A stretch of DNA of 64,000 nt from Flavobacterium sp. WC2421. GTDB taxonomy: Bacteria; Bacteroidota; Bacteroidia; Flavobacteriales; Flavobacteriaceae. The notes beneath the pieces are model-generated. The model did no database searches and was not told the DNA's origin. It worked only from the letters and a program-made list of their open reading frames with translations. This document shows positions 53,009 through 64,000 of the stretch, piece by piece; position 1 is the first letter of the stretch; every line of letters starts with the position of its first letter. The DNA lies in contig NZ_CP162004.1 of the NCBI RefSeq assembly GCF_040822115.1, positions 248,001 to 312,000 on the forward strand, written 5' to 3'. A program made the translations under genes and the position numbers.

Positions 53009-55552
53009 TTACAATTTCAAACTACGCAATCGCAATGCATTTGCAATTACCGAAACAGAACTAAAACTCATCGCCAAAGCGGCAATCATAGGAGATAATA
53101 AAATCCCAAAAAAAGGATACAATACTCCTGCTGCAATTGGTATTCCCAATGCATTGTAAAAGAAGGCAAAGAATAAGTTTTGATTGATATTTTTCATCAC
53201 AGCATGACTCAGTTCCTTCGCTTTTACTATGCCTTGTAAATCCCCTTTTACCAAAGTAATTTTGGCACTTTCAATCGCCACATCTGTCCCTGTTCCCATT
53301 GCAATTCCAATATCAGCTTGCGCCAAAGCAGGAGCGTCATTAATTCCATCACCAGCCATCGCTACAATTTTACCTTCGGCTTGCAAGCGTTTAATTTCGT
53401 TGAGTTTATCTTCTGGCAAACAACCCGCAATAAATGAAGTTAATTGCAATTCATCGGCCACAGCCTTAGCCGTATTCTCATTATCACCTGTAAGCATAAT
53501 CACAGCAACACCTTGACGCATCAATTCTTTTACAGCGGCCACACTTGTCGCTTTTATAGCATCTGTGATCGTCACATAACCCAAAACTACTTGGTCTACG
53601 GCGATATATGAAACTGTTTTTCCCAGTTTTTGTTCTGCAATTATTTTGTTTTCAATATCTTCCGAAACTGAAGCACTCACTTGTTCCATTAGTTTTTTAT
53701 TTCCTAATGCTACTTTTTTATTTGAAACCGTTCCTATTACTCCTTTTCCGGAAACAGCTTCAAAATCTTTAACTTCGATTAACGAAACTGCTTTCGTTTT
53801 CGCAAAATTGACTACGGCTTGCGCCAAAGGGTGTTCACTGTATTGATTGAGTGAAGCTATATTTTGCAACAAATCATCCTCTTGATTATTAGATGAAAAA
53901 ACTTTTTCTACTGATGGTTTTCCCTCGGTAATGGTTCCCGTTTTATCTGTAATTAAAACATTTACTTTATTCATATTTTCTAGTGCTTCGGCATTTTTTA
54001 TCAAAACTCCTGATTGCGCTCCTTTACCTACTCCCACCATTACTGACATAGGAGTTGCTAATCCTAATGCACAAGGACAAGCAATAATTAAAACGGCAAC
54101 CGCATTAATAAAACCGTAGATTAATGCGTTTTGTTCTGGACCAAACTTTGCCCAAACAAAGAAAGTAATCACTGAAACGGCGACAACGATAGGCACAAAA
54201 TACTTCGAAATTCTATCGGCTAATTTTTGAATGGGTGCTCTAGATCGACTGGCATTATTGACCATTTGTACAATTTGCGAAAGCAAGGTTTCTGAACCAA
54301 TTTTTTCAGCAACCATTACAAATGATTTATTCCCATTAATAGTTCCTGCAACAACGGCATCATCAACTTTTTTATCTACAGGAATAGGTTCTCCCGAAAT
54401 CATTGACTCATCAATTGTACTTTCGCCAGCAGTTATTTTACCATCAACTGGAATTTTATCTCCGGGTTTTACACGCAATAAATCTCCTTTTTTAATATCA
54501 TGTATCGATATTACTTTATCTCCTCCTTCAGCTACCAAAGTAGCTTCTGTAGGCGCTAATTTTAATAATTCTTTTATCGCACCACTCGTTTGACTGTGCG
54601 CTCTAGCTTCTAATAATTGTCCTAATAAAACTAATGTTAGGATTACCGTTGTGGCCTCAAAATACAAATGAACACTTCCGCTTTCGGATTTGAATTCCGC
54701 TGGAAAAACATCTGGAAAAAAAAGAGCAAAAATACTAAACAAGAAAGCGACTCCAGAACCAATTCCGATAAGGGTAAACATATTGAGATTCCATGTAACG
54801 ACTGATTTCCAAGCGCGAATAAAAAACATCCAAGTCGCATAAAAAACAACTGGTATAGACAAAACTAGCTGCACCCAATTCCAGCTTTTCATATCCATGA
54901 TTTGCATCAAAGGATTGTTTGGTATCATATCTGACATGGCTATTATGAAAATGGGCACGGTAAAAAGAAGTGCAATTTTCATTTTTTGCACCAAGTCATT
55001 GTAGGTTTTATTTTCCTCACTAGCTGTGGGTTCCATTGGAACCAAATCCATACCACAAATCGGGCAAGAACCTGGTCCGTCCTGCACGATTTGTGGATGC
55101 ATCGGACAAGTATATTGTGTTTTTACAGCAGTTAAATCTGGCGCTTTTACTAAATCCATCCCACATACAGGGCAGTCTCCCGCTTTATCATATACTTTAT
55201 CGCCTTCACAATGCATGGGGCAATAATATTTACCTGGTGTATTGGGAATCGCATTGTCTTCCTTTTTATGATGTTGATGCGCGTCATTACTACAACACGC
55301 TTTAGCTTTAGTCTCTTCAACTGTTTTATCCATCGCCATTTTAGGATGGCTCATTTCTATAGTGTACTTCCCAACTCCTGACAATGCTTCTTGCAAAACG
55401 GGTGTTGGAATGTGTTTTTCCATTGTAATTACAGCTTCTTGTGGATCAAGAGAAACCACCGCTTCAACTCCTTCAACTCCATTGAGTGTTTTCTCCACTT
55501 TGGTTCGGCAACCATCGCAAGACATTCCAGTAATTGTGTATGTATGTTTCAT
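53009..55552 (-). CDS. copA: Copper-exporting P1B-type ATPase CopA
   Basis: 847-aa inner-membrane pump that exports Cu(I) to the periplasm. N-terminal heavy-metal-associated domain with C12-D-G-C15 (residues 1-70). Then two CPMH..CPxCGM modules: CPMHC...CPVCGMDL (about 115-140) and CPMHPQ...CPICGMDLVPM (about 145-172). Then the P-type core: TGES-type actuator ISGEPIPV (about 390), the ion motif IACPCALGLATP (CPC, about 492), DKTGT (about 535) and GDGINDAPALAQ (about 735). Its ends and its position between AraC regulator and oxidase fit a copper-efflux operon. Confidence 0.95.
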   Translation of the reverse strand: MKHTYTITGMSCDGCRTKVEKTLNGVEGVEAVVSLDPQEAVITMEKHIPTPVLQEALSGVGKYTIEMSHPKMAMDKTVEETKAKACCSNDAHQHHKKEDNAIPNTPGKYYCPMHCEGDKVYDKAGDCPVCGMDLVKAPDLTAVKTQYTCPMHPQIVQDGPGSCPICGMDLVPMEPTASEENKTYNDLVQKMKIALLFTVPIFIIAMSDMIPNNPLMQIMDMKSWNWVQLVLSIPVVFYATWMFFIRAWKSVVTWNLNMFTLIGIGSGVAFLFSIFALFFPDVFPAEFKSESGSVHLYFEATTVILTLVLLGQLLEARAHSQTSGAIKELLKLAPTEATLVAEGGDKVISIHDIKKGDLLRVKPGDKIPVDGKITAGESTIDESMISGEPIPVDKKVDDAVVAGTINGNKSFVMVAEKIGSETLLSQIVQMVNNASRSRAPIQKLADRISKYFVPIVVAVSVITFFVWAKFGPEQNALIYGFINAVAVLIIACPCALGLATPMSVMVGVGKGAQSGVLIKNAEALENMNKVNVLITDKTGTITEGKPSVEKVFSSNNQEDDLLQNIASLNQYSEHPLAQAVVNFAKTKAVSLIEVKDFEAVSGKGVIGTVSNKKVALGNKKLMEQVSASVSEDIENKIIAEQKLGKTVSYIAVDQVVLGYVTITDAIKATSVAAVKELMRQGVAVIMLTGDNENTAKAVADELQLTSFIAGCLPEDKLNEIKRLQAEGKIVAMAGDGINDAPALAQADIGIAMGTGTDVAIESAKITLVKGDLQGIVKAKELSHAVMKNINQNLFFAFFYNALGIPIAAGVLYPFFGILLSPMIAALAMSFSSVSVIANALRLRSLKL

Positions 55553-55638
55553 TTTTTTCGCTATTTAAAATTATAGTACAAATATCCGAATGAAACCCAT
55601 TTTTATTATTACACAATTGTGGAAGTGATTTGTATAAT

Positions 55639-56199
55639 TTACAAAGAGTCTATTTGTTTTCGGGTATTCTCTTTCATTTTTTTAAAATAGGTAGGTGTAA
55701 ATCCAGTCACTTTTTTAAATTGGTTGCTCAAATGGGCTACATTACTATAATTGAGTGCTATGGCAATTTCACTTAAAGTAAGTTCATCATAAACCAACAA
55801 TTCCTTCGCCTTTTCGATTTTCTGGGCAATAAAATAATGTTCAATTGTTGTGCCTTCATTATCCGAAAACAACTTACTCAAAGCACTATAATCCTGATTT
55901 AAACATTCAGATAAATAAGTCGATAAATTGACTTTCAACTGATCTTTTTTATAATGTACTAGTTCAACGATCAAGTTTTTAATTTGTTCAATTGTCTGGC
56001 TTATTTTATCTTCCAGTAATTCAAAACCTAGTTTTTCCAGGTTAGTACTGAGTTCCTGAATTTCAATATCCGTTAATTCTCGAGACAAATTCACTTCACC
56101 TAATTTAATGGAACTTACAGGAAGCTTCATTCTTTCTAACTCCAATTTTACAGCCATTTCGCAACGGCCACAAACCATATTTTTAATAGTAAGCTTCAT
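55639..56199 (-). CDS. AraC family regulator with an N-terminal metal-binding-like domain
   Basis: 186 aa. Residues 1-62 look like a heavy-metal-associated fold with KNMVC10-G-R-C13 in the place of the CxxC copper-binding loop, an unusual partner for an AraC protein. The C-terminal about 95 residues are the AraC helix-turn-helix (LTLSEIAIALNYSNVAHLSNQF and FTPTYFKKM). It lies within the copper efflux locus and is a good candidate for its copper-responsive regulator. Confidence 0.85.
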   Translation of the reverse strand: MKLTIKNMVCGRCEMAVKLELERMKLPVSSIKLGEVNLSRELTDIEIQELSTNLEKLGFELLEDKISQTIEQIKNLIVELVHYKKDQLKVNLSTYLSECLNQDYSALSKLFSDNEGTTIEHYFIAQKIEKAKELLVYDELTLSEIAIALNYSNVAHLSNQFKKVTGFTPTYFKKMKENTRKQIDSL

Positions 56200-56314
56200 T
56201 TATAAAGTGTTTGTTAGAACATGCTATCAAAGTTCAACCTTTTTGAATTAAAACGAGGCTTTTTTGACAGAATATTAATATTTAAAACCTTGAAATATAG
56301 ATAATTAATTTAAT

Positions 56315-57529
56315 TTACATTTTCATTCCTGCCATAGGATCATTTCCTTTTCGAAATTTATATTCGCTATTGATAGCATACGCTCCAGTAATTACTACTT
56401 TTTTATTAGGATCTATGTCCGATTTGATTTCAATCATCCCATTTGATTCCACACCTGTTTCAACCATTACATTTTCAAAAACACCATGGCTTTTTTCGAC
56501 CCAAATAAAAGTGGCATTTTCATCCCTGATTACGGCATCAATAGGAATAAACATTCCATTTAAATTGGATTGTATTAATTGTGCATTGGCCTGCATTCCT
56601 GGTTTTAAAAGCATATTAGGATTGGGTACTTCCATTCTAATTAACAGCAATCTAGAATCCGGATTAATTTCTGGATTGATAAAAGAAATGGCTGCTTTTA
56701 TAGTCTTTGTGGGATAATCCATAAAAGAAATTGTAGCTGTTTGACCCAATCGCAAACTTTTGGCATAATTTACATTGACTTGCGTTTCTAACCAAAGACT
56801 ACTTAAATCGGCCAATTTAATAATAGCCGCCCCTTCCATCACATAACTACCTTCGGTCGCAACAATTTCAGAAATGGTACCACTATAGGTACTATAAAAA
56901 GTAGTATATGGCGAAACTTCATTCGTCTTTTTAATGGATTCAATCTGCGCATTGGAAAGTCCATAAAATACTAGTTTTTGTCTGGCTGCATCCAGCATAT
57001 TCTTTGCATTTTTACCAAAATCTCCTGGCATAGCCAGTTGCCTGTAAGCGGTTACATAATCTTGCTTGGCTATGGCAATAGGTTCACTATAAAGTTGGTA
57101 AACCGCCTGGTTTTTTTGAATATAATCCCCTTCAGTTTTAAAATATAATTTTTCGATTCGGCCCATTGCTCTAGCAGAAACACTTCTTATTTTCTCTTGA
57201 TTTATCGTCAAAACGCCAGTGTAACCTGCTTGCAAACTGCTTTGTGACTCTGAAATAATAGCAGTAGTAATATTGCCTAACTTCATTTGCTGGTCACTTA
57301 ATGAAATTTCATTTGAAGCTCCATTGTCTTTTTGTATTGGAGTCAAATCCATATGACATATGGGGCATTTTCCAGGTTTGTCTTCTTTTATTTGAGGATC
57401 CATCGAACACGTATAATAAATACTTTCTTTGTATTGATGCTTCTCGTGTTCCTCTTTATTTTTAGTATTGCAGGCCACAACCAAGGTGAATGCCAGCAAT
57501 AGAAAACCGATTTTTTTGAGCTGTTTCAT
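56315..57529 (-). CDS. cusB: RND efflux membrane-fusion protein (CusB-like), second copy
   Basis: 404-aa periplasmic adaptor joining the RND pump to the outer-membrane channel. Lipoprotein signal (VVACNTK). A CPxC..HM-type module (CSMDPQ...CPICHMDL, about residues 38-61) precedes the hairpin/lipoyl part and the beta-barrel domain (about 240-340). The C-terminal MAGMKM is Met-rich. Last gene before the AraC regulator; its upstream neighbour is another adaptor, 2 nt away. Confidence 0.92.
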   Translation of the reverse strand: MKQLKKIGFLLLAFTLVVACNTKNKEEHEKHQYKESIYYTCSMDPQIKEDKPGKCPICHMDLTPIQKDNGASNEISLSDQQMKLGNITTAIISESQSSLQAGYTGVLTINQEKIRSVSARAMGRIEKLYFKTEGDYIQKNQAVYQLYSEPIAIAKQDYVTAYRQLAMPGDFGKNAKNMLDAARQKLVFYGLSNAQIESIKKTNEVSPYTTFYSTYSGTISEIVATEGSYVMEGAAIIKLADLSSLWLETQVNVNYAKSLRLGQTATISFMDYPTKTIKAAISFINPEINPDSRLLLIRMEVPNPNMLLKPGMQANAQLIQSNLNGMFIPIDAVIRDENATFIWVEKSHGVFENVMVETGVESNGMIEIKSDIDPNKKVVITGAYAINSEYKFRKGNDPMAGMKM

Positions 57530-57531
57530 TA

Positions 57532-58779
57532 TTATTTTGTTTTTATAAAGCTTCCGCTATCTATCAAATATTGGGCATTATCAGCAAGGATATCCGAAAC
57601 TGAAATACCATCTACTATTTGTACAAAGCCATTTATTTCGATACCCGTTTTTATTTCGGCAGTTTGAAAACCATTTCCCTTTTTGATAAAAACTATTTTT
57701 TTGTTACCTAAACTAACCAAAGATTGTTTTTGAAGCCAAATCCCTTCTACTGCATTCGTTGCTACTTTCCCTTGCAATCTCAAACCAATAGGGAATTGCA
57801 GTTTTTCATTATTGAGATACACGCGAATGCGATTGGTCTTATCTGTTGGATCAAGTTGTGTTTCAATAAAATTTACTTTTGCATTGACAATCGCATCTGC
57901 GTCCAATTCTGATGAAATTTGAATCGACTGATTGACTTTTATTAGACTATTATAGCCTTGGATAACATTAAAAACACCCCAAACTTTATTCGTGTTTACT
58001 AATTTAAAAACCACAGTGTTTTTTGTAATATAATCCCCTTCCTTCAAATTTAAAGCCGTCGTTGTTGCCGTTGTATTTTGCATAGTGCCAATACTAGTAG
58101 AAACCATACCATCCGTTCCATCCACAATTCCAGTCACTGGACTGTAAATTGAGATTACTGGATTTATTCTTTTGGCTGTAGCCAAAGCATTAATCTGATT
58201 GGTACTCATCCCATAAAGCGCTAATTTTTGCTTTAATGCTTTTAGTATGGCTGTATTCTCAGAATCATTTGAAACTAAATAAATAAAATTTTGCTGTTCC
58301 GTTACTAATTCTGGACTGTACAAATCGAATAGTTTTTGCCCTTTTGTAACTTTTTGAAATTTATAATGAACATACATTTTTTCAATTCTTCCATTAATTC
58401 GTGCGGCTATATTCACAGCTGAATTGGGATCATACGCCACCAGTCCAGGTAAATTTATGGAGCTATTGAGAACAGTATCTTTGGCGGTAGTTGTTTTAAA
58501 ATCTCCCACCACAAAACCATCTGTCGGTTTTAATAAATGTTCAATTGAATGACTTTCAACAGGCTGACTTTCAGAGACTTTTTTTACTAAATTCATTCCG
58601 CAAATAGGGCAATTACCCGGTTCATTTCGTATAATTTCGGGATGCATCGAGCAAGTATAAATTTCTTCCTTCTGCTTATGCGTCGCTGAATTATTGGCTT
58701 TTTCGACAAAATAATATACGGCAAAACCCACCATTACAACGGCAATAGTCCATAAACTATATTTTAAATATTTGTTCAT
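57532..58779 (-). CDS. cusB: RND efflux membrane-fusion protein (CusB-like), first copy
   Basis: 415-aa adaptor with an N-terminal membrane anchor (YSLWTIAVVMVGFAVYYFV), the metal-binding module (CSMHPE...CPICGMNL, about residues 43-66) and the adaptor core (AARINGRIEKMYVHYKFQKV, GDYITKNTVVFKLV). Why two adaptors are encoded in tandem is unclear: they may form hetero-oligomers or serve different metals. The gaps to both neighbours are 2 nt, indicating tight co-translation. Confidence 0.92.
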   Translation of the reverse strand: MNKYLKYSLWTIAVVMVGFAVYYFVEKANNSATHKQKEEIYTCSMHPEIIRNEPGNCPICGMNLVKKVSESQPVESHSIEHLLKPTDGFVVGDFKTTTAKDTVLNSSINLPGLVAYDPNSAVNIAARINGRIEKMYVHYKFQKVTKGQKLFDLYSPELVTEQQNFIYLVSNDSENTAILKALKQKLALYGMSTNQINALATAKRINPVISIYSPVTGIVDGTDGMVSTSIGTMQNTTATTTALNLKEGDYITKNTVVFKLVNTNKVWGVFNVIQGYNSLIKVNQSIQISSELDADAIVNAKVNFIETQLDPTDKTNRIRVYLNNEKLQFPIGLRLQGKVATNAVEGIWLQKQSLVSLGNKKIVFIKKGNGFQTAEIKTGIEINGFVQIVDGISVSDILADNAQYLIDSGSFIKTK

Positions 58780-58781
58780 AA

Positions 58782-60035
58782 TTATTTTGTTTCCAGTTGT
58801 TTTTCAATTTCTACTTGAGTATTCAAAATAGCTTGTAATTTATCTAACTTATCCATTTGAGCCATGTTCAATGCTTCCCAAGCATCTAGCACCACAAATA
58901 ATTCACCCGTATTATTTTGCCAAGCCAAAACTGCCGTATCATAATTCCTTTTCAAAGCTGGAATGATGCTTTTATCGGCGATCTCATATTGTTTTTTTAA
59001 GTTTGTCAATTCGGTTTGCATGCCTGAAATCATACCTGTTGCTTCGTTCAAAATCATTTGCTTTTGCCATTCCAAGCTCTCATTTTTTATTTGAATACTA
59101 TTGATTGTGGCCTTGTTCATTTTAGTAGACCATGGCATCGGAATAGTGACCATTGCCATCAAATTAAACTGTTGTGGGTTCTTCCCAAAAGCAAACATAT
59201 GATCATATTTTACTCCAAACTCGGGTAATAACTTTGATTTTTCGGTGGCAATTTTCAACTGATTTAATTCCATTGTTTTCTCAATTGCCTTCACATCGCT
59301 TCGGTTTTGAGAAAGTGCCGTGGTATCTGTTTGTAATAAATCAAACTCTTTTAAAGTATAATTGGGATCAATTTCAAACAACAGTTTTTTATCTCTTGCC
59401 ATCAACGTATTCAACATAATTCTTTTTTGAGAAATTTCATTTTGCAACATAACCACCATACTTTGCAATTCGTTGTATTTTGATTTGGCTTTGTAGTACG
59501 TTGACAATTTATCCATGTTGTACTGGTAGCGAATTTCCATGCTTTTTATCATGTACTCCATAAGCAACAAATTGTCATTGGCTATTTTTATTTTTTTATC
59601 CAATACGATCCATTGGTAATAATTAGTTTTTGCTAAAGCTTCCAACTGATTGGCAGTATAATTTTTATTTTCGGCTTCCACAGATGACATAGCACTCATG
59701 TAATTAAAATCGGCTTTTTGTCTGGATGCATTGGGGATCATTTGCGTAAAGCCTACCATATATGCGCCCATTCCTGGATTCATTTCATCTGCTTTCCACA
59801 TTTTGACATTATAAGGTGTCATAAACAAACCGGTATTTATTTGCGGTGCCATCCAGCTTTTGGCTCCTTTAGCAGCAGCATCCATACTTTGAATATCGGC
59901 ATCATACATTTTTAGCTGTGGATTATTGGTCTTGATGGTCCCCAAAACTTCATCTAATGAAAGTGATTGCGCATTTACATTTGCAAATCCGAACATCAGA
60001 CCACTTATAATGATATACTTTTTAATGTTTCGCAT
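58782..60035 (-). CDS. cusC: TolC family outer-membrane efflux protein
   Basis: 417-aa outer-membrane factor with a signal peptide (residues about 1-22, ending ANVNAQ) and two OEP repeats: SLSLDEVLGTIKTNNPQLKMYDADIQ (split over 25-50) and a later half with LKRNYDTAVLAWQNNTGELFVVLDAW (split over 365-392). It overlaps the pump gene by 14 nt, so translation is coupled. It completes a CusCBA-type three-part pump. Confidence 0.9.
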   Translation of the reverse strand: MRNIKKYIIISGLMFGFANVNAQSLSLDEVLGTIKTNNPQLKMYDADIQSMDAAAKGAKSWMAPQINTGLFMTPYNVKMWKADEMNPGMGAYMVGFTQMIPNASRQKADFNYMSAMSSVEAENKNYTANQLEALAKTNYYQWIVLDKKIKIANDNLLLMEYMIKSMEIRYQYNMDKLSTYYKAKSKYNELQSMVVMLQNEISQKRIMLNTLMARDKKLLFEIDPNYTLKEFDLLQTDTTALSQNRSDVKAIEKTMELNQLKIATEKSKLLPEFGVKYDHMFAFGKNPQQFNLMAMVTIPMPWSTKMNKATINSIQIKNESLEWQKQMILNEATGMISGMQTELTNLKKQYEIADKSIIPALKRNYDTAVLAWQNNTGELFVVLDAWEALNMAQMDKLDKLQAILNTQVEIEKQLETK

Positions 60036-61959
60036 TGATGATTTCTATTTTACCTTTTGTTCTTAATTCACGAAGTTTTGTCATTTCAAAAACAACTGGC
60101 GTTACTAATAATACATAAATAGTGGAAGTAATTGTCCCTCCAATAAGTGGAACTGTAATTGGAATCATTACATCCGCTCCAGTTCCTGTTGACCATAGAA
60201 TGGGGATTAATCCAAACAAAGCCACAGAAACCGTCATTAATTTAGGGCGCAACCTTTTGGCCGAACCATAAATAATATAATCTCGCAAAATATCTTCTGT
60301 AATGGTTTCACTACTATTCCCATGTTTTTCGACCATTTTAATCATGGCTTCATTTAAATAAATGGTAATCAACATGGCTGTTTCAATGGCTAAACCAAAT
60401 AAAGCAATAAACCCGACAGCCACAGCCACAGATAAGTTAATCCCATAAAAATAAACCATAAAAATTCCACCAATCAAAGCAAAAGGAACTGTAATCATGG
60501 TCACGAATGCTTCTTTCATGGAGCCATAAGTAAAAAATAAAATCAAAAATATTATTACTACAACAAGAGGCATAATCAAGCTTAATGTTTTGTTGGCCCG
60601 AATTTGGTTTTCCCACTGTCCACTCCATTCCACGTAATATCCTTTTGGCATTTTGGTCATCATAGCATTCAGTTTGTCCTGCGCTTCTTTTACAGTGCTC
60701 CCTAAATCCCGATCTCTAACATTAAATAAAACGCTTCCACGGAGCATGGCGTTCTCACTATTAATCATGGGCGGTCCATCGCTGATTTTAATATCAGCAA
60801 CAGTTTCTAATGGTATTGGTCCGTATTCCATTGTTTGCACCTGTAATTTTTTCAAGGCTTCTAGGCTATTTCTGTATTCTTGTGCATAGCGTGCATTGAC
60901 AGAAAAACGTTGTCGTCCTTCAATTGTAGTCGTTAATGTCATTCCACCAATCGCTGCTTCTACCACACTATTTACATCATCAACACTAAGACCATAACGA
61001 CCTATAACTTCTCGTTTAGCAACAATATCAATGTATTTCCCTCCTGTAATAGGTTCCGCAAACAAGTCTTTTACTCCTGCTGTGCCTTCTAAGGATTTTT
61101 TTATTTTTTGTGCCAATGCATCTATCGTGTCCAGATTTTCACCGTAAATTTTAATTCCTACATCGGTTCTAATTCCTGTAGATAGCATATTGATCCGGTT
61201 GATAATGGGCTGAGTAAATCCATTAGTCACACCTGGAATTTGGAGCTTATTGTTGATTTCAGTTATAATATCACTTTTAGTTTTCCCTTCTCTCCATTCA
61301 TTATGAGGTTTTAGTAAAACGATGGTTTCAATCATACTTATCGGACTATTGTCCGTTGCTGTATTAGCTCTTCCTGCTTTTCCCAAAACATGGGTTACTT
61401 CTGGAATTGATTTTATCAATTTATCCTGAACCTGCAAAATTCGCTTAATCTCTGCATTCGAAACATCAGGTAAAGTTACTGGCATAAATAAGATTGAACC
61501 TTCATCCAATGGTGGCATAAATTCAGACCCCAATCGAGTAAACATCAATCCCCCAATTAATAAAGCGACGATGTTTACTGCCAATACTGATTTTCTCCAT
61601 TTCAAACAAAAAGTTAAAATAGGCGTATATATACTTTCCAATTTTCTATTAATTGGGTTTTTATTCTCGGGACGCAATTTTCCTTTTAACAAATAGCTGA
61701 TTAAAACCGGCGTCAATGTGATAGCTAAAAAAGCATCCACAATTAGAATAAATGATTTCGTCCACGCTAACGGGCTAAACAATTTCCCTTCCATTCCTGT
61801 TAATAGAAAAACGGGTAAAAAAGAAGCAATCACGATTAATGTAGAATAAAAAACACCCGGTCCTACTAATTTTGAGGAGTCTTCAATCAGTTTCATTTTT
61901 TCTTCAGAAGACACTGGATCATGTTCTTTTTTGAATATATTTTTAAATATTTTTTTCAT
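60022..61959 (-). CDS. cusA: CusA-type RND pump, C-terminal part (separated by an in-frame stop)
   Basis: 645 aa: transmembrane helices TM5-12 plus the second periplasmic loop of a CusA/CzcA-family pump. LTGMEGKLFSPLAWTKSF near the start and GSEFMPPLDEGSILFMPV and WSGQWENQ further on are typical. It is in the same frame as the N-terminal part, separated by the stop TAA at 61969-61971 and three codons; homologues carry both in one polypeptide. It starts with a basic segment (MKKIFKNIFKKEHD) that would lie in the cytoplasmic TM4-TM5 loop. Whether it folds as a separate chain or needs read-through is not known. Confidence 0.8.
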   Translation of the reverse strand: MKKIFKNIFKKEHDPVSSEEKMKLIEDSSKLVGPGVFYSTLIVIASFLPVFLLTGMEGKLFSPLAWTKSFILIVDAFLAITLTPVLISYLLKGKLRPENKNPINRKLESIYTPILTFCLKWRKSVLAVNIVALLIGGLMFTRLGSEFMPPLDEGSILFMPVTLPDVSNAEIKRILQVQDKLIKSIPEVTHVLGKAGRANTATDNSPISMIETIVLLKPHNEWREGKTKSDIITEINNKLQIPGVTNGFTQPIINRINMLSTGIRTDVGIKIYGENLDTIDALAQKIKKSLEGTAGVKDLFAEPITGGKYIDIVAKREVIGRYGLSVDDVNSVVEAAIGGMTLTTTIEGRQRFSVNARYAQEYRNSLEALKKLQVQTMEYGPIPLETVADIKISDGPPMINSENAMLRGSVLFNVRDRDLGSTVKEAQDKLNAMMTKMPKGYYVEWSGQWENQIRANKTLSLIMPLVVVIIFLILFFTYGSMKEAFVTMITVPFALIGGIFMVYFYGINLSVAVAVGFIALFGLAIETAMLITIYLNEAMIKMVEKHGNSSETITEDILRDYIIYGSAKRLRPKLMTVSVALFGLIPILWSTGTGADVMIPITVPLIGGTITSTIYVLLVTPVVFEMTKLRELRTKGKIEIINAKH

Positions 61960-61974
61960 TGCTGTTGGTTAATG
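61957..61974 (-). other. cusA: In-frame stop codon interrupting cusA
   Basis: Reading the minus strand: CAT TAA CCA ACA GCA ATG. The TAA at 61971-61969 and the downstream ATG at 61959 are in the same frame. A single substitution is enough to split the gene, and no bases are gained or lost. The downstream ATG has no strong ribosome-binding site, though such sites are often weak in Bacteroidetes. Confidence 0.85.
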
Positions 61975-63249
61975 TTTATTGTCCAGTTCTTCCTGTCTCT
62001 CAGAGATACTTCGATAGGCATTCTCCACCATTACAATCCCATCATCAACCACAACACCAATTGCTAAGGCAATACCTGTAAGCGACATAATATTGGATGA
62101 AATCCCAAAGGCTTGAAGAAAGATAAATCCTATCGCTACGGATATAGGCAATTGTATCAGAATTATAAGCGCGCTTCTCCAATGAAAAAGAAATAATAAA
62201 ACAATAATCGACACTGCAATCATTTCTTCTATCAAAGTTCCTTTAACAGACTCGATTGCTTTTTCTATCAATTCACTTCGGTCATACGACGTCTTGAAAG
62301 TCACCCCTTCTGGCAAGCCTTTTTCGACTTGGTTCATTTTGGCTTTTACTGCTTGAATTACTTTATCGGCATTTTCGCCGTAACGCATCACTACAATTCC
62401 GCCTACCACTTCCCCTTCACCATTAGCATCAAAAATTCCCAAACGCAAATCGCCACCCATCTGTACCGATCCAATATCACTGACTTTTACAGGAACCGAA
62501 TTGTAGTTTTTAATGGCAATTTCCTCCACATCCTTTATGTTTTTGATATATCCCAATCCTCTTACTACATACGATCGGTCACTCATTTCAAATTTCCTGC
62601 CACCCACATCATTGTTGCTGCTTTTGACCGCTTTCATCACTTCCATCATACTAACATTGTAGTATTGCATTTTGAGTGGATCTAAAACCAATTGGTATTG
62701 TTTTTCGAACCCACCAAAAGAAGCGACTTCCGCCACTCCGGGAACCGTTTGCAAGGCAAACTTCACATACCAATCTTGCAAAGCGCGCTGTTCACCTAAA
62801 TCCATTCCATTAGTTTCTAAGTGATACCAAAAAACATGACCAACCCCTGTTCCATCAGGTCCTAGTGTGGGAACTACACTTTCGGGCAATAGCCGTTGCG
62901 CATAATTCAGTCGCTCCAATACACGGGTTCTAGCCCAATAAGGATCTACATCATCTTCAAAAATGATATACACAAAACTCATCCCAAACATGGAGGAAGC
63001 ACGGATATTCTTGATTTTTGGAATCCCTTGTAAATTAGAAACCAAGGGATACGTTACTTGATCTTCTATAACTTGTGGGCTTCGACCCATCCATTCCGTA
63101 AAAACAATCACTTGATTCTCGGATAAATCCGGAATTGCATCAATAGGATTTTGTTGCACACTATAAATCCCCCAACCAAACAAACAGGCAGAAACCAGTA
63201 AGACAGCTAATCGGTTTTTTAATGAAAAAGAAATTAATTTTTCGACCAT
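61969..63249 (-). CDS. cusA: CusA-type RND pump, N-terminal part (ends at an in-frame stop)
   Basis: 426 aa covering TM1, the first periplasmic loop and TM2-TM4 of the pump: QVTYPLVSNLQGIPKIKNIR, GVAEVASFGGFEKQY, IAIGVVVDDGIVMVENAYRS (TM4, with the proton-relay aspartates). It ends DNKH-stop where homologues go on into TM5. With the downstream frame, the total is about 1075 codons, close to CusA length. The gene is the second complete one in the operon, 6 nt after the haem-binding gene. Confidence 0.82.
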   Translation of the reverse strand: MVEKLISFSLKNRLAVLLVSACLFGWGIYSVQQNPIDAIPDLSENQVIVFTEWMGRSPQVIEDQVTYPLVSNLQGIPKIKNIRASSMFGMSFVYIIFEDDVDPYWARTRVLERLNYAQRLLPESVVPTLGPDGTGVGHVFWYHLETNGMDLGEQRALQDWYVKFALQTVPGVAEVASFGGFEKQYQLVLDPLKMQYYNVSMMEVMKAVKSSNNDVGGRKFEMSDRSYVVRGLGYIKNIKDVEEIAIKNYNSVPVKVSDIGSVQMGGDLRLGIFDANGEGEVVGGIVVMRYGENADKVIQAVKAKMNQVEKGLPEGVTFKTSYDRSELIEKAIESVKGTLIEEMIAVSIIVLLFLFHWRSALIILIQLPISVAIGFIFLQAFGISSNIMSLTGIALAIGVVVDDGIVMVENAYRSISERQEELDNKH

Positions 63250-63255
63250 AACAAC

Positions 63256-63726
63256 TTATTTTTTTTGAGAAAGACTATCTTTCACTTTATCGATCCATTG
63301 AACTACTTCTTCTTTTTGAACTGAAGTAAGGATTGCGTTTCTATGAATTAGTGTGTAAGACGTCAAAGGCATTTCACCCTTCTTTATTTGTTTACTAATT
63401 TCATTTAATTTGTTTCCTTGTTTTCTAAGAGAATAATTCCCCCACTCACTAAAATTCAAATTTTCCTTGCCTTCTTTTATATGACTATCCATCAACATTC
63501 TTGCAGGCTGAATATTTGAATACCAAGGGTAATTTGTAGTATTACTGTGGCAGTCATAACAAGAAGTTTTCAAAATAGTTTCCACTTTTGTTGGAACTGC
63601 ATAAGCATTCATAAAATCCAAAGCTGGAACCGGTACATAATCAATCGTACGAACAGGTTGATACAATTGCATCAACAAAAAAACAATAAATGCAATTGCG
63701 GCTATTTTTTTGAAAACTTTCTTCAT
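63256..63726 (-). CDS. Haem-binding domain protein (periplasmic cytochrome-like)
   Basis: 156 aa from the ATG at 63726; the longer frame uses a GTG. N-terminal membrane anchor (about residues 7-22) and a haem-binding domain with one CYDCHSNTTNYPWYSNIQP motif (about 52-70; CxxCH covalently binds haem). Family members are found beside heavy-metal pumps and DUF3347 proteins in Bacteroidetes. It begins 2 nt from the stop of the DUF3347 gene. Confidence 0.88.
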   Translation of the reverse strand: MKKVFKKIAAIAFIVFLLMQLYQPVRTIDYVPVPALDFMNAYAVPTKVETILKTSCYDCHSNTTNYPWYSNIQPARMLMDSHIKEGKENLNFSEWGNYSLRKQGNKLNEISKQIKKGEMPLTSYTLIHRNAILTSVQKEEVVQWIDKVKDSLSQKK

Positions 63727-63727
63727 T

Positions 63728-64000
63728 TTACCATTCTTTAGTAATTCCACCGCAGGTTAGCATTTCGGATCCATAATAGGGATTCTTAATATCCTTAACC
63801 TCACTAATCCAATAGCCACTTTTCCCTTGATCATACATTGGGCAATAATCTTTATATATTTTTTTATCTGTTCCAAAGATTTTAATCAAATCATTTACAT
63901 CCTTGCTTAACATGGCAAAATGCTCTCTTTGGTGGTCAATTTTACCTGCATTATCACCAATATGTTCGGCATGTTCTTTGGCATCATCAGTGATATCTGC
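63728..64000 (-). CDS. DUF3347 protein, C-terminal part (cut by the window end)
   Basis: Partial: about 90 codons lie in the window, the N-terminus is beyond 64000. YKDYCPMYDQGKSGYWIS and NPYYGSEMLTCGG are the family hallmarks; the cysteine/methionine pattern suggests copper binding. It precedes the haem-binding gene by 1 nt and appears to belong to the same copper locus. Confidence 0.85.
   Translation of the reverse strand, partial: ADITDDAKEHAEHIGDNAGKIDHQREHFAMLSKDVNDLIKIFGTDKKIYKDYCPMYDQGKSGYWISEVKDIKNPYYGSEMLTCGGITKEW

Follow-up and report, generated by a model that had tools for sequence, protein, structure and literature searches.

Two genuine genes in Flavobacterium sp. WC2421 very probably encode, jointly, one CusA-type Cu(I)/Ag(I) pump of the RND type that consists of two chains, with four transmembrane helices (TM) in one chain and eight in the other. 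Comparison of relatives has shown this two-gene arrangement to be widespread and old, and on that comparison the question of whether the locus represents a mutation, a two-chain pump or a read-through site can be regarded as settled in favour of two chains. The feature looks healthy, i.e. a conserved two-chain CusA-type pump whose assembly and transport are predicted. If this is correct, many Bacteroidota naturally build a large AcrB/CusA-superfamily pump from two unequal chains, and this would provide a ready-made system for RND permease folding and pairing and for the role of the TM4-TM5 link in proton coupling.

The locus and its two reading frames

The metal-efflux cluster is found on the minus strand of positions 53009-63249 of the window (the whole stretch of 64,000 nucleotides that was analysed) and extends from CusA-N to a CopA-type ATPase (Table 1). 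The two CusA frames had been predicted to be in register, with only TAA and three codons separating them, and their coordinates are exact. Between the TAA of CusA-N and the ATG of CusA-C lies CCA ACA GCA, with the same frame throughout; the sequence of this spacer differs among the closest relatives. A family search of the whole genome displays the CusA locus as one ACR_tran match with a single internal TAA. The neighbouring genes were correctly described as intact, the TolC-like, the two CusB-like, the AraC-type and the CopA-like genes all being whole frames, and genes for a CusB-type adaptor and an outer membrane channel are present beside the split CusA, as in an operon.

Table 1. Coordinates of the split CusA genes and of the metal-efflux genes that accompany them in the window
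Feature	Position	Strand	Description
CusA-N	61969..63249	(-)	426 aa; TM1, first periplasmic region, TM2-TM4; stop TAA at 61971-61969
CusA-C	60022..61959	(-)	645 aa; TM5-TM12 and second periplasmic region; ATG at 61959-61957
Spacer between CusA-N stop and CusA-C start	61960..61968	(-)	nine bases
Basic N-terminal extension of CusA-C, codons 1-16	61912..61959	(-)	MKKIFKNIFKKEHDPV
TolC-like outer membrane factor (CusC role)	58782..60035	(-)	family/domain profiles
CusB-like periplasmic adaptor with heavy-metal-binding domain	57532..58779	(-)	family/domain profiles
Second CusB-like periplasmic adaptor with heavy-metal-binding domain	56315..57529	(-)	family/domain profiles
AraC-type regulator, CxxC-containing N-terminus	55639..56199	(-)	Pfam for helix-turn-helix
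CopA-type copper P-type ATPase, HMA and HMBD domains	53009..55552	(-)	

Two further characteristics of the cluster were observed. The CusA-C and TolC-like genes overlap by 14 bases (60022-60035), which is likely a second point of translational coupling, in addition to the one proposed below for the CusA junction. In the regulator, a CxxC-containing start, TIKNMVCGRCEM, precedes the AraC-type helix-turn-helix, and only the helix-turn-helix is matched by Pfam.

The two halves together match the RND permease fold and family profile along its whole length. CusA-N covers positions 1-429 and CusA-C positions 426-1043 of TIGR00914 (1051 positions), and coverage of ACR_tran (PF00873) is 2-418 and 416-1019, respectively. 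As each half is only part of the pump, each remains below the whole-protein cut-off of TIGR00914 (701.45 bits), with 478.1 bits for CusA-N and 609.9 bits for CusA-C. In place of the single polypeptide of ~1040 residues of the CusA/HME-RND family there are two frames, of 426 and 645 aa.

The N half aligns to residues 8-431 and the C half to residues 438-1050 of the E. coli CusA chain in 3t51, and this places the break in the cytoplasmic loop between TM4 and TM5, as originally predicted. Single-chain structure models are weak, with a mean pLDDT of 69.5 for CusA-N and 64.4 for CusA-C. CusA is the top Foldseek target for both models; the TM-scores in the CusA rows are low (0.54-0.61) and the rmsd is high (at least 10), and the break point was therefore set by sequence alignment and not by the models. 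The helices in the two weak models agree with a break after TM4.

Distribution and evolutionary history of the split

Searches with the N half detected 33 places at E ≤ 1e-130 in 150 genomes of the genus, of which 31 are separate frames of 428-458 aa; the other two are a place broken by two stops (G083) and one of 53% identity that is fused (G106). In the class, 56 of 395 genomes sampled have a match and 64 places pass, with 59 separate (421-499 aa), four fused (G864, G621, G545 and G551) and one cut by a contig end (G675). The assignment to separate or fused in these genus and class counts was by frame length.

The C half matches 117 of the 150 genus genomes at E ≤ 1e-100, mostly as distant paralogues. 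Among the matches listed, genus places of at least 62% identity have frames of 640-669 aa, with the exception of one cut by contig ends (G062), and paralogues of ~33-38% identity have frames of ~1000-1490 aa. The fused frame in G106, with 47% identity to the C half, is 1092 aa long. Across the phylum, a match is present in 122 of 395 sampled genomes. In the best 29 places the C half has a frame of its own, of 643-728 aa, with 53-100% identity and scores down to 751 bits; from 719 bits down (≤53%) the frames are at least 913 aa except for two, one of 720 aa and one of 622 aa with a TGA.

In 76 of 80 loci that were collected, a separate N half precedes the C half on the same strand. The remaining four consist of one fused locus (L053), one with the N half downstream (L056) and two whose upstream end is cut off (L041 and L085). 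Two adjacent genes, each termed 'efflux RND transporter permease subunit', are also found on finished plasmids of Runella slithyformis, Haliscomenobacter hydrossis and Hymenobacter DG01; non-Bacteroidota plasmid records, among the 40 listed of 3233 records, have at most one permease gene name. Split CusA pumps may be miscounted in annotation, or called broken, since the halves are named separately in these three plasmid records and neither half in the window reaches the cut-off of the CusA model. Four of the 64 class places and L053 are fused, and a split is thus no requirement.

A comparison with related strains had been proposed together with the original prediction, and relatives in the genus and class mostly carry the two-gene arrangement with separate starts. 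This supports a working two-chain pump, which was one of the three readings offered at the time. Another was a recent nonsense mutation, and a sequencing error in a cusA gene that is really whole belongs to the same reading; consistent with it, the single TAA is the sole break in the ACR_tran match. The reading is refuted, however, as relatives across Bacteroidota share the same two genes, with the identical arrangement in many other species, and as both halves are conserved as protein. The N-terminal segment added to the C chain, described below, also evolves as protein. The probability that remains for a fresh mutation or error is negligible.

Three individual loci are of interest in themselves. 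In L036 (from G083), which is of the Flavobacterium type, the N half is interrupted and the C half is intact; this represents a pseudogene or an assembly error. In L166, on a plasmid of Hymenobacter sp. HDW8, the N half is annotated as whole and the C half is in pieces, and this is probably a decaying copy. A split pump of the Bacteroidota type is found in a metagenome-assembled genome named Williamsia (Actinomycetota; L103), and its tree position suggests that the contig is misbinned.

For the phylogenetic trees 139 rows were kept, of which 46 entered the first tree after thinning; the second tree comprises these and four fused rows (50 rows), and L005 and L006 were the outgroup. Omitted from the trees and from the junction counts were L001-L004, L007, L009 and L147-L162, as well as three rows with an incomplete half, namely L036 (N half broken), L139 (N half truncated within its locus) and L166 (fragmented C half), and, for having no N half, L030, L038, L041, L056, L085, L126 and L129.

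The first tree (46 rows) unites the split rows in one clade with support of 100, inside which fused L053 is nested. The 50-row tree, from which the junction columns were removed, needs a minimum of five state changes (four to five on bootstrap trees), three of which are forced by its starred branches alone. The core split clade has support of 100/100 and contains fused L053, fused L203 and the fused pair L202/L205. The base of the tree, with fused L204 and the long-branched split L140, is unsettled, and L203 and split L050 are joined with weak support (82/46). Monophyly of the split rows as a constraint is rejected whether or not L140 is included (p-AU ~1e-7), as is a constraint that unites the four late fused rows (p-AU 4e-5); these p-AU values are indicative only, since the groupings were chosen with the tree already in view. 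The re-fused loops are 25 residues long in L053 and 27 in L202, L203 and L205, close to the never-split pumps, of which seven of the nine measured have a loop of 25 residues. The favoured reading of the trees is a single ancient fission (or perhaps two, at the base) followed by at least two re-fusions.

The junction and the start of the C chain

The third reading offered was stop-codon read-through, whereby the in-frame TAA would sometimes be decoded as sense and a full-length pump would be formed besides the halves. In keeping with this, the frames agree and three codons lie between stop and start not only in the window but also in L010, L011 and L012. Junctions were compared in 110 distinct rows, 15 of 125 rows having been removed as duplicates; the C start was assigned by rule (the ATG nearest the aligned start, or another start codon where there is no ATG) and is not an observed one. 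The two frames are in register in 19 of the 110 junctions, the window included, and out of register in 91, so that the shared frame in the window is nothing special and the register across relatives that marks a read-through gene is missing. Junction geometry varies: there are 23 four-base ATGA overlaps, 15 other overlaps, 63 junctions with 0-20 bases, seven with 21-200 and two that are longer.

Stop codons of the N half are TAA in 74 junctions, TGA in 31 and TAG in five. TAA is the least leaky stop codon, and it is the stop in 17 of the 19 in-register junctions, which also argues against read-through. In two loci other frames intervene between the halves: a frame of up to 243 aa in L093, methyltransferase-like as named by eye, and three frames of 140, 96 and 81 aa in L088 (2467-3455). 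Gene order is reversed in G339, G355 and G540 (L169, L170 and L171), where the C half precedes the N half on the same strand; these rows form one clade in both trees, and their C half is followed by a TolC-like and then an adaptor-like frame (named by eye). The predicted RNA fold near the stop in the window is no better than that of shuffled sequences (z 0.09). With junctions mostly out of frame, intervening frames and swapped order, read-through is not a general mechanism, and the suggestion of a read-through site in the window is unsupported and highly improbable. Promoter-like sites at positions 61600-64000 number five, against 7.7 expected by chance, and thus provide no evidence there for a promoter of the C gene's own.

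The third of the frames that intervene in L088 (81 aa) displays a CPMHPE motif, a heavy-metal-binding motif, and is a likely lipoprotein, as judged by eye.

For the two-chain pump, a pathway can be proposed in which the gene was split long ago within the cytoplasmic TM4-TM5 loop, giving rise to an N chain (TM1-TM4) and a C chain (TM5-TM12). Ribosomes might restart at the ATG nine bases after the TAA by translational coupling. CusA-N and CusA-C would be inserted separately and would pair in the membrane, after which three N-C pairs would assemble into a conventional trimer together with the TolC-like channel and the CusB-like adaptors.

Codon comparisons show strong purifying selection on CusA-N and CusA-C alike: dN/dS is 0.017-0.038 in 15 of 16 comparisons of the two chains with eight relatives, the remaining one being not computable, and these values are rough because synonymous sites are near saturation. 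From the end of TM4 to the VG.GVF-like motif there are 25-30 residues in fused pumps versus a median of 46 in split pairs (two sides summed; 110 distinct rows, of which one, L169, was missed). The additional length in split pairs is mostly a basic segment at the C-chain start, which is absent from the fused pumps compared. The C-chain start has a median net charge of +3 and is positive in 98 of 110 rows, and 14 rows have almost no extension.

Among Flavobacterium-type rows (24 distinct sequences), codons 2-16 of CusA-C have a pN of 0.159 and a pS of 0.654, a ratio of 0.24, compared with 0.17 at codons 17-37 and 0.05 at codons 38-100; the 31 rows were picked for equal ATG-to-VGPGVF spacing, so that the equal ATG position is a selection effect and only the pN/pS contrast counts. 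Judged from the ratio over codons 2-16, the extension is translated, under weaker constraint than in the body of the chain, and by the same measure the C gene is shown to be translated from its own start. The new basic start probably keeps the N-terminus of TM5 inside, an orientation that is based on the positive-inside rule.

Functional residues and related pumps

Residues are numbered after E. coli K-12 CusA and are those named in excerpts of two papers (PMC8092243, PMC11213822). CusA-N carries the equivalents of R83, M391, D405 and M410, and CusA-C carries the three-methionine site M573, M623 and M672 together with K482, E939 and K984. Invariant in 128 of 128 split rows are R83, M391, D405, K482, E567, M573, D617, M623, E625, R669, M672 and T987; the 128 rows retain E939 in 127 cases and K984 in 125. 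The periplasmic Cu/Ag site described for CusA in the excerpt of PMC8092243, M573, M623 and M672 with E625, is complete in every split row (128/128). From the periplasmic site and the operon, copper can be inferred as a substrate.

The proton relay residues D405, E939 and K984 are all present in the window. D405 is on the N chain, and K482, E939 and K984 are on the C chain; therefore the proton relay needs both chains. This bears on a further reading, namely that the chains act apart, or with other partners, and do not form one pump protomer. Such a reading would fit the freedom of gene order and spacing to vary, and the presence of three split pairs in single genomes (G293 and G398). It is improbable, however: in the loci examined the halves lie close together, the conserved relay requires residues from both chains, and the re-fusions restore an ordinary single chain.

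The transmembrane methionine pairs are only partially conserved in the window. M391-M1009 is kept, and M403-M486 and M410-M501 are not, with V at M403, L at M486 and I at M501; M271 and M755 of E. coli CusA are also missing. Split rows keep M403 in 0 of 128, M486 in 26 of 128 and M501 in one of 128, and M501 is methionine in eight of nine fused rows, a contrast that represents one lineage's history, with rows that are not independent, and is no proof of cause. S1027, proposed as proton receiver in E. coli CusA, is V in the window. Every one of the 128 split rows has V or I at this position, and eight of nine fused rows have V. The loss of M403, M486 and M501 in most split rows and of S1027 in all speaks against a complete mechanism of the E. 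coli type.

TM4 bears the proton residue D405 and adjoins the cytosolic entrance of the methionine channel. It is conceivable, although rather doubtful, that the cut after TM4 altered the pump, with metal taken from the periplasm only, with TM4 motion or the N:C ratio set independently, and with a loop repeatedly opened and closed in evolution as a switch. Uptake from the periplasm only is proposed because the split clade lacks M501, the partner of M410 at the entrance.

With respect to known systems, the two-chain pump can be compared with E. coli CusA (3k07, 3ne5 and the cryo-EM structures of PMC8092243), with identities of 46-47% for the N half and 36-39% for the C half in the Foldseek CusA rows. 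The three-methionine site, E625, D405, E939, K984, K482 and similar operon partners are shared; unlike E. coli CusA, which is one chain of 1047 aa, the pump described here has two chains and a longer loop. A CusA-like protein from the same phylum, G2EDV3 of Bizionia argentinensis, is reported to have the three methionines, in the excerpt of PMC11213822. It is apparently a single chain, as one protein is credited there with residues R83 to K678 (PMC11213822), and neither 'split' nor 'truncated' occurs in the text of that paper. Among the matches listed in a search of open-access titles and abstract openings, with subscription papers outside its scope, there is no split CusA or split RND pump.

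SecD/SecF display an RND-type fold that occurs as two chains or one, according to the excerpt of PMC8277102. SecD/SecF divide 6 + 6, whereas split CusA divides 4 + 8, inside the first repeat, with the break after TM4 by alignment to CusA; the functions are unrelated. MdtB/MdtC and other heteromeric RND pumps have more than one kind of permease chain per trimer, and chains of the MdtB/MdtC type are each full-length. Split CusA would likewise have more than one kind of chain per trimer, but each of its chains is part only. The excerpt of PMC8277102 names MdtB/MdtC as a duplicated pair.

The same genome also has two CzcA-type RND metal pumps, L005 and L006, with 33-36% identity to the halves in the window. 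These represent the opposite case, in that ACR_tran and OEP are fused in one frame, of 1440 aa in L005 (271-4590, minus strand) and 1452 aa in L006 (1465-5820).
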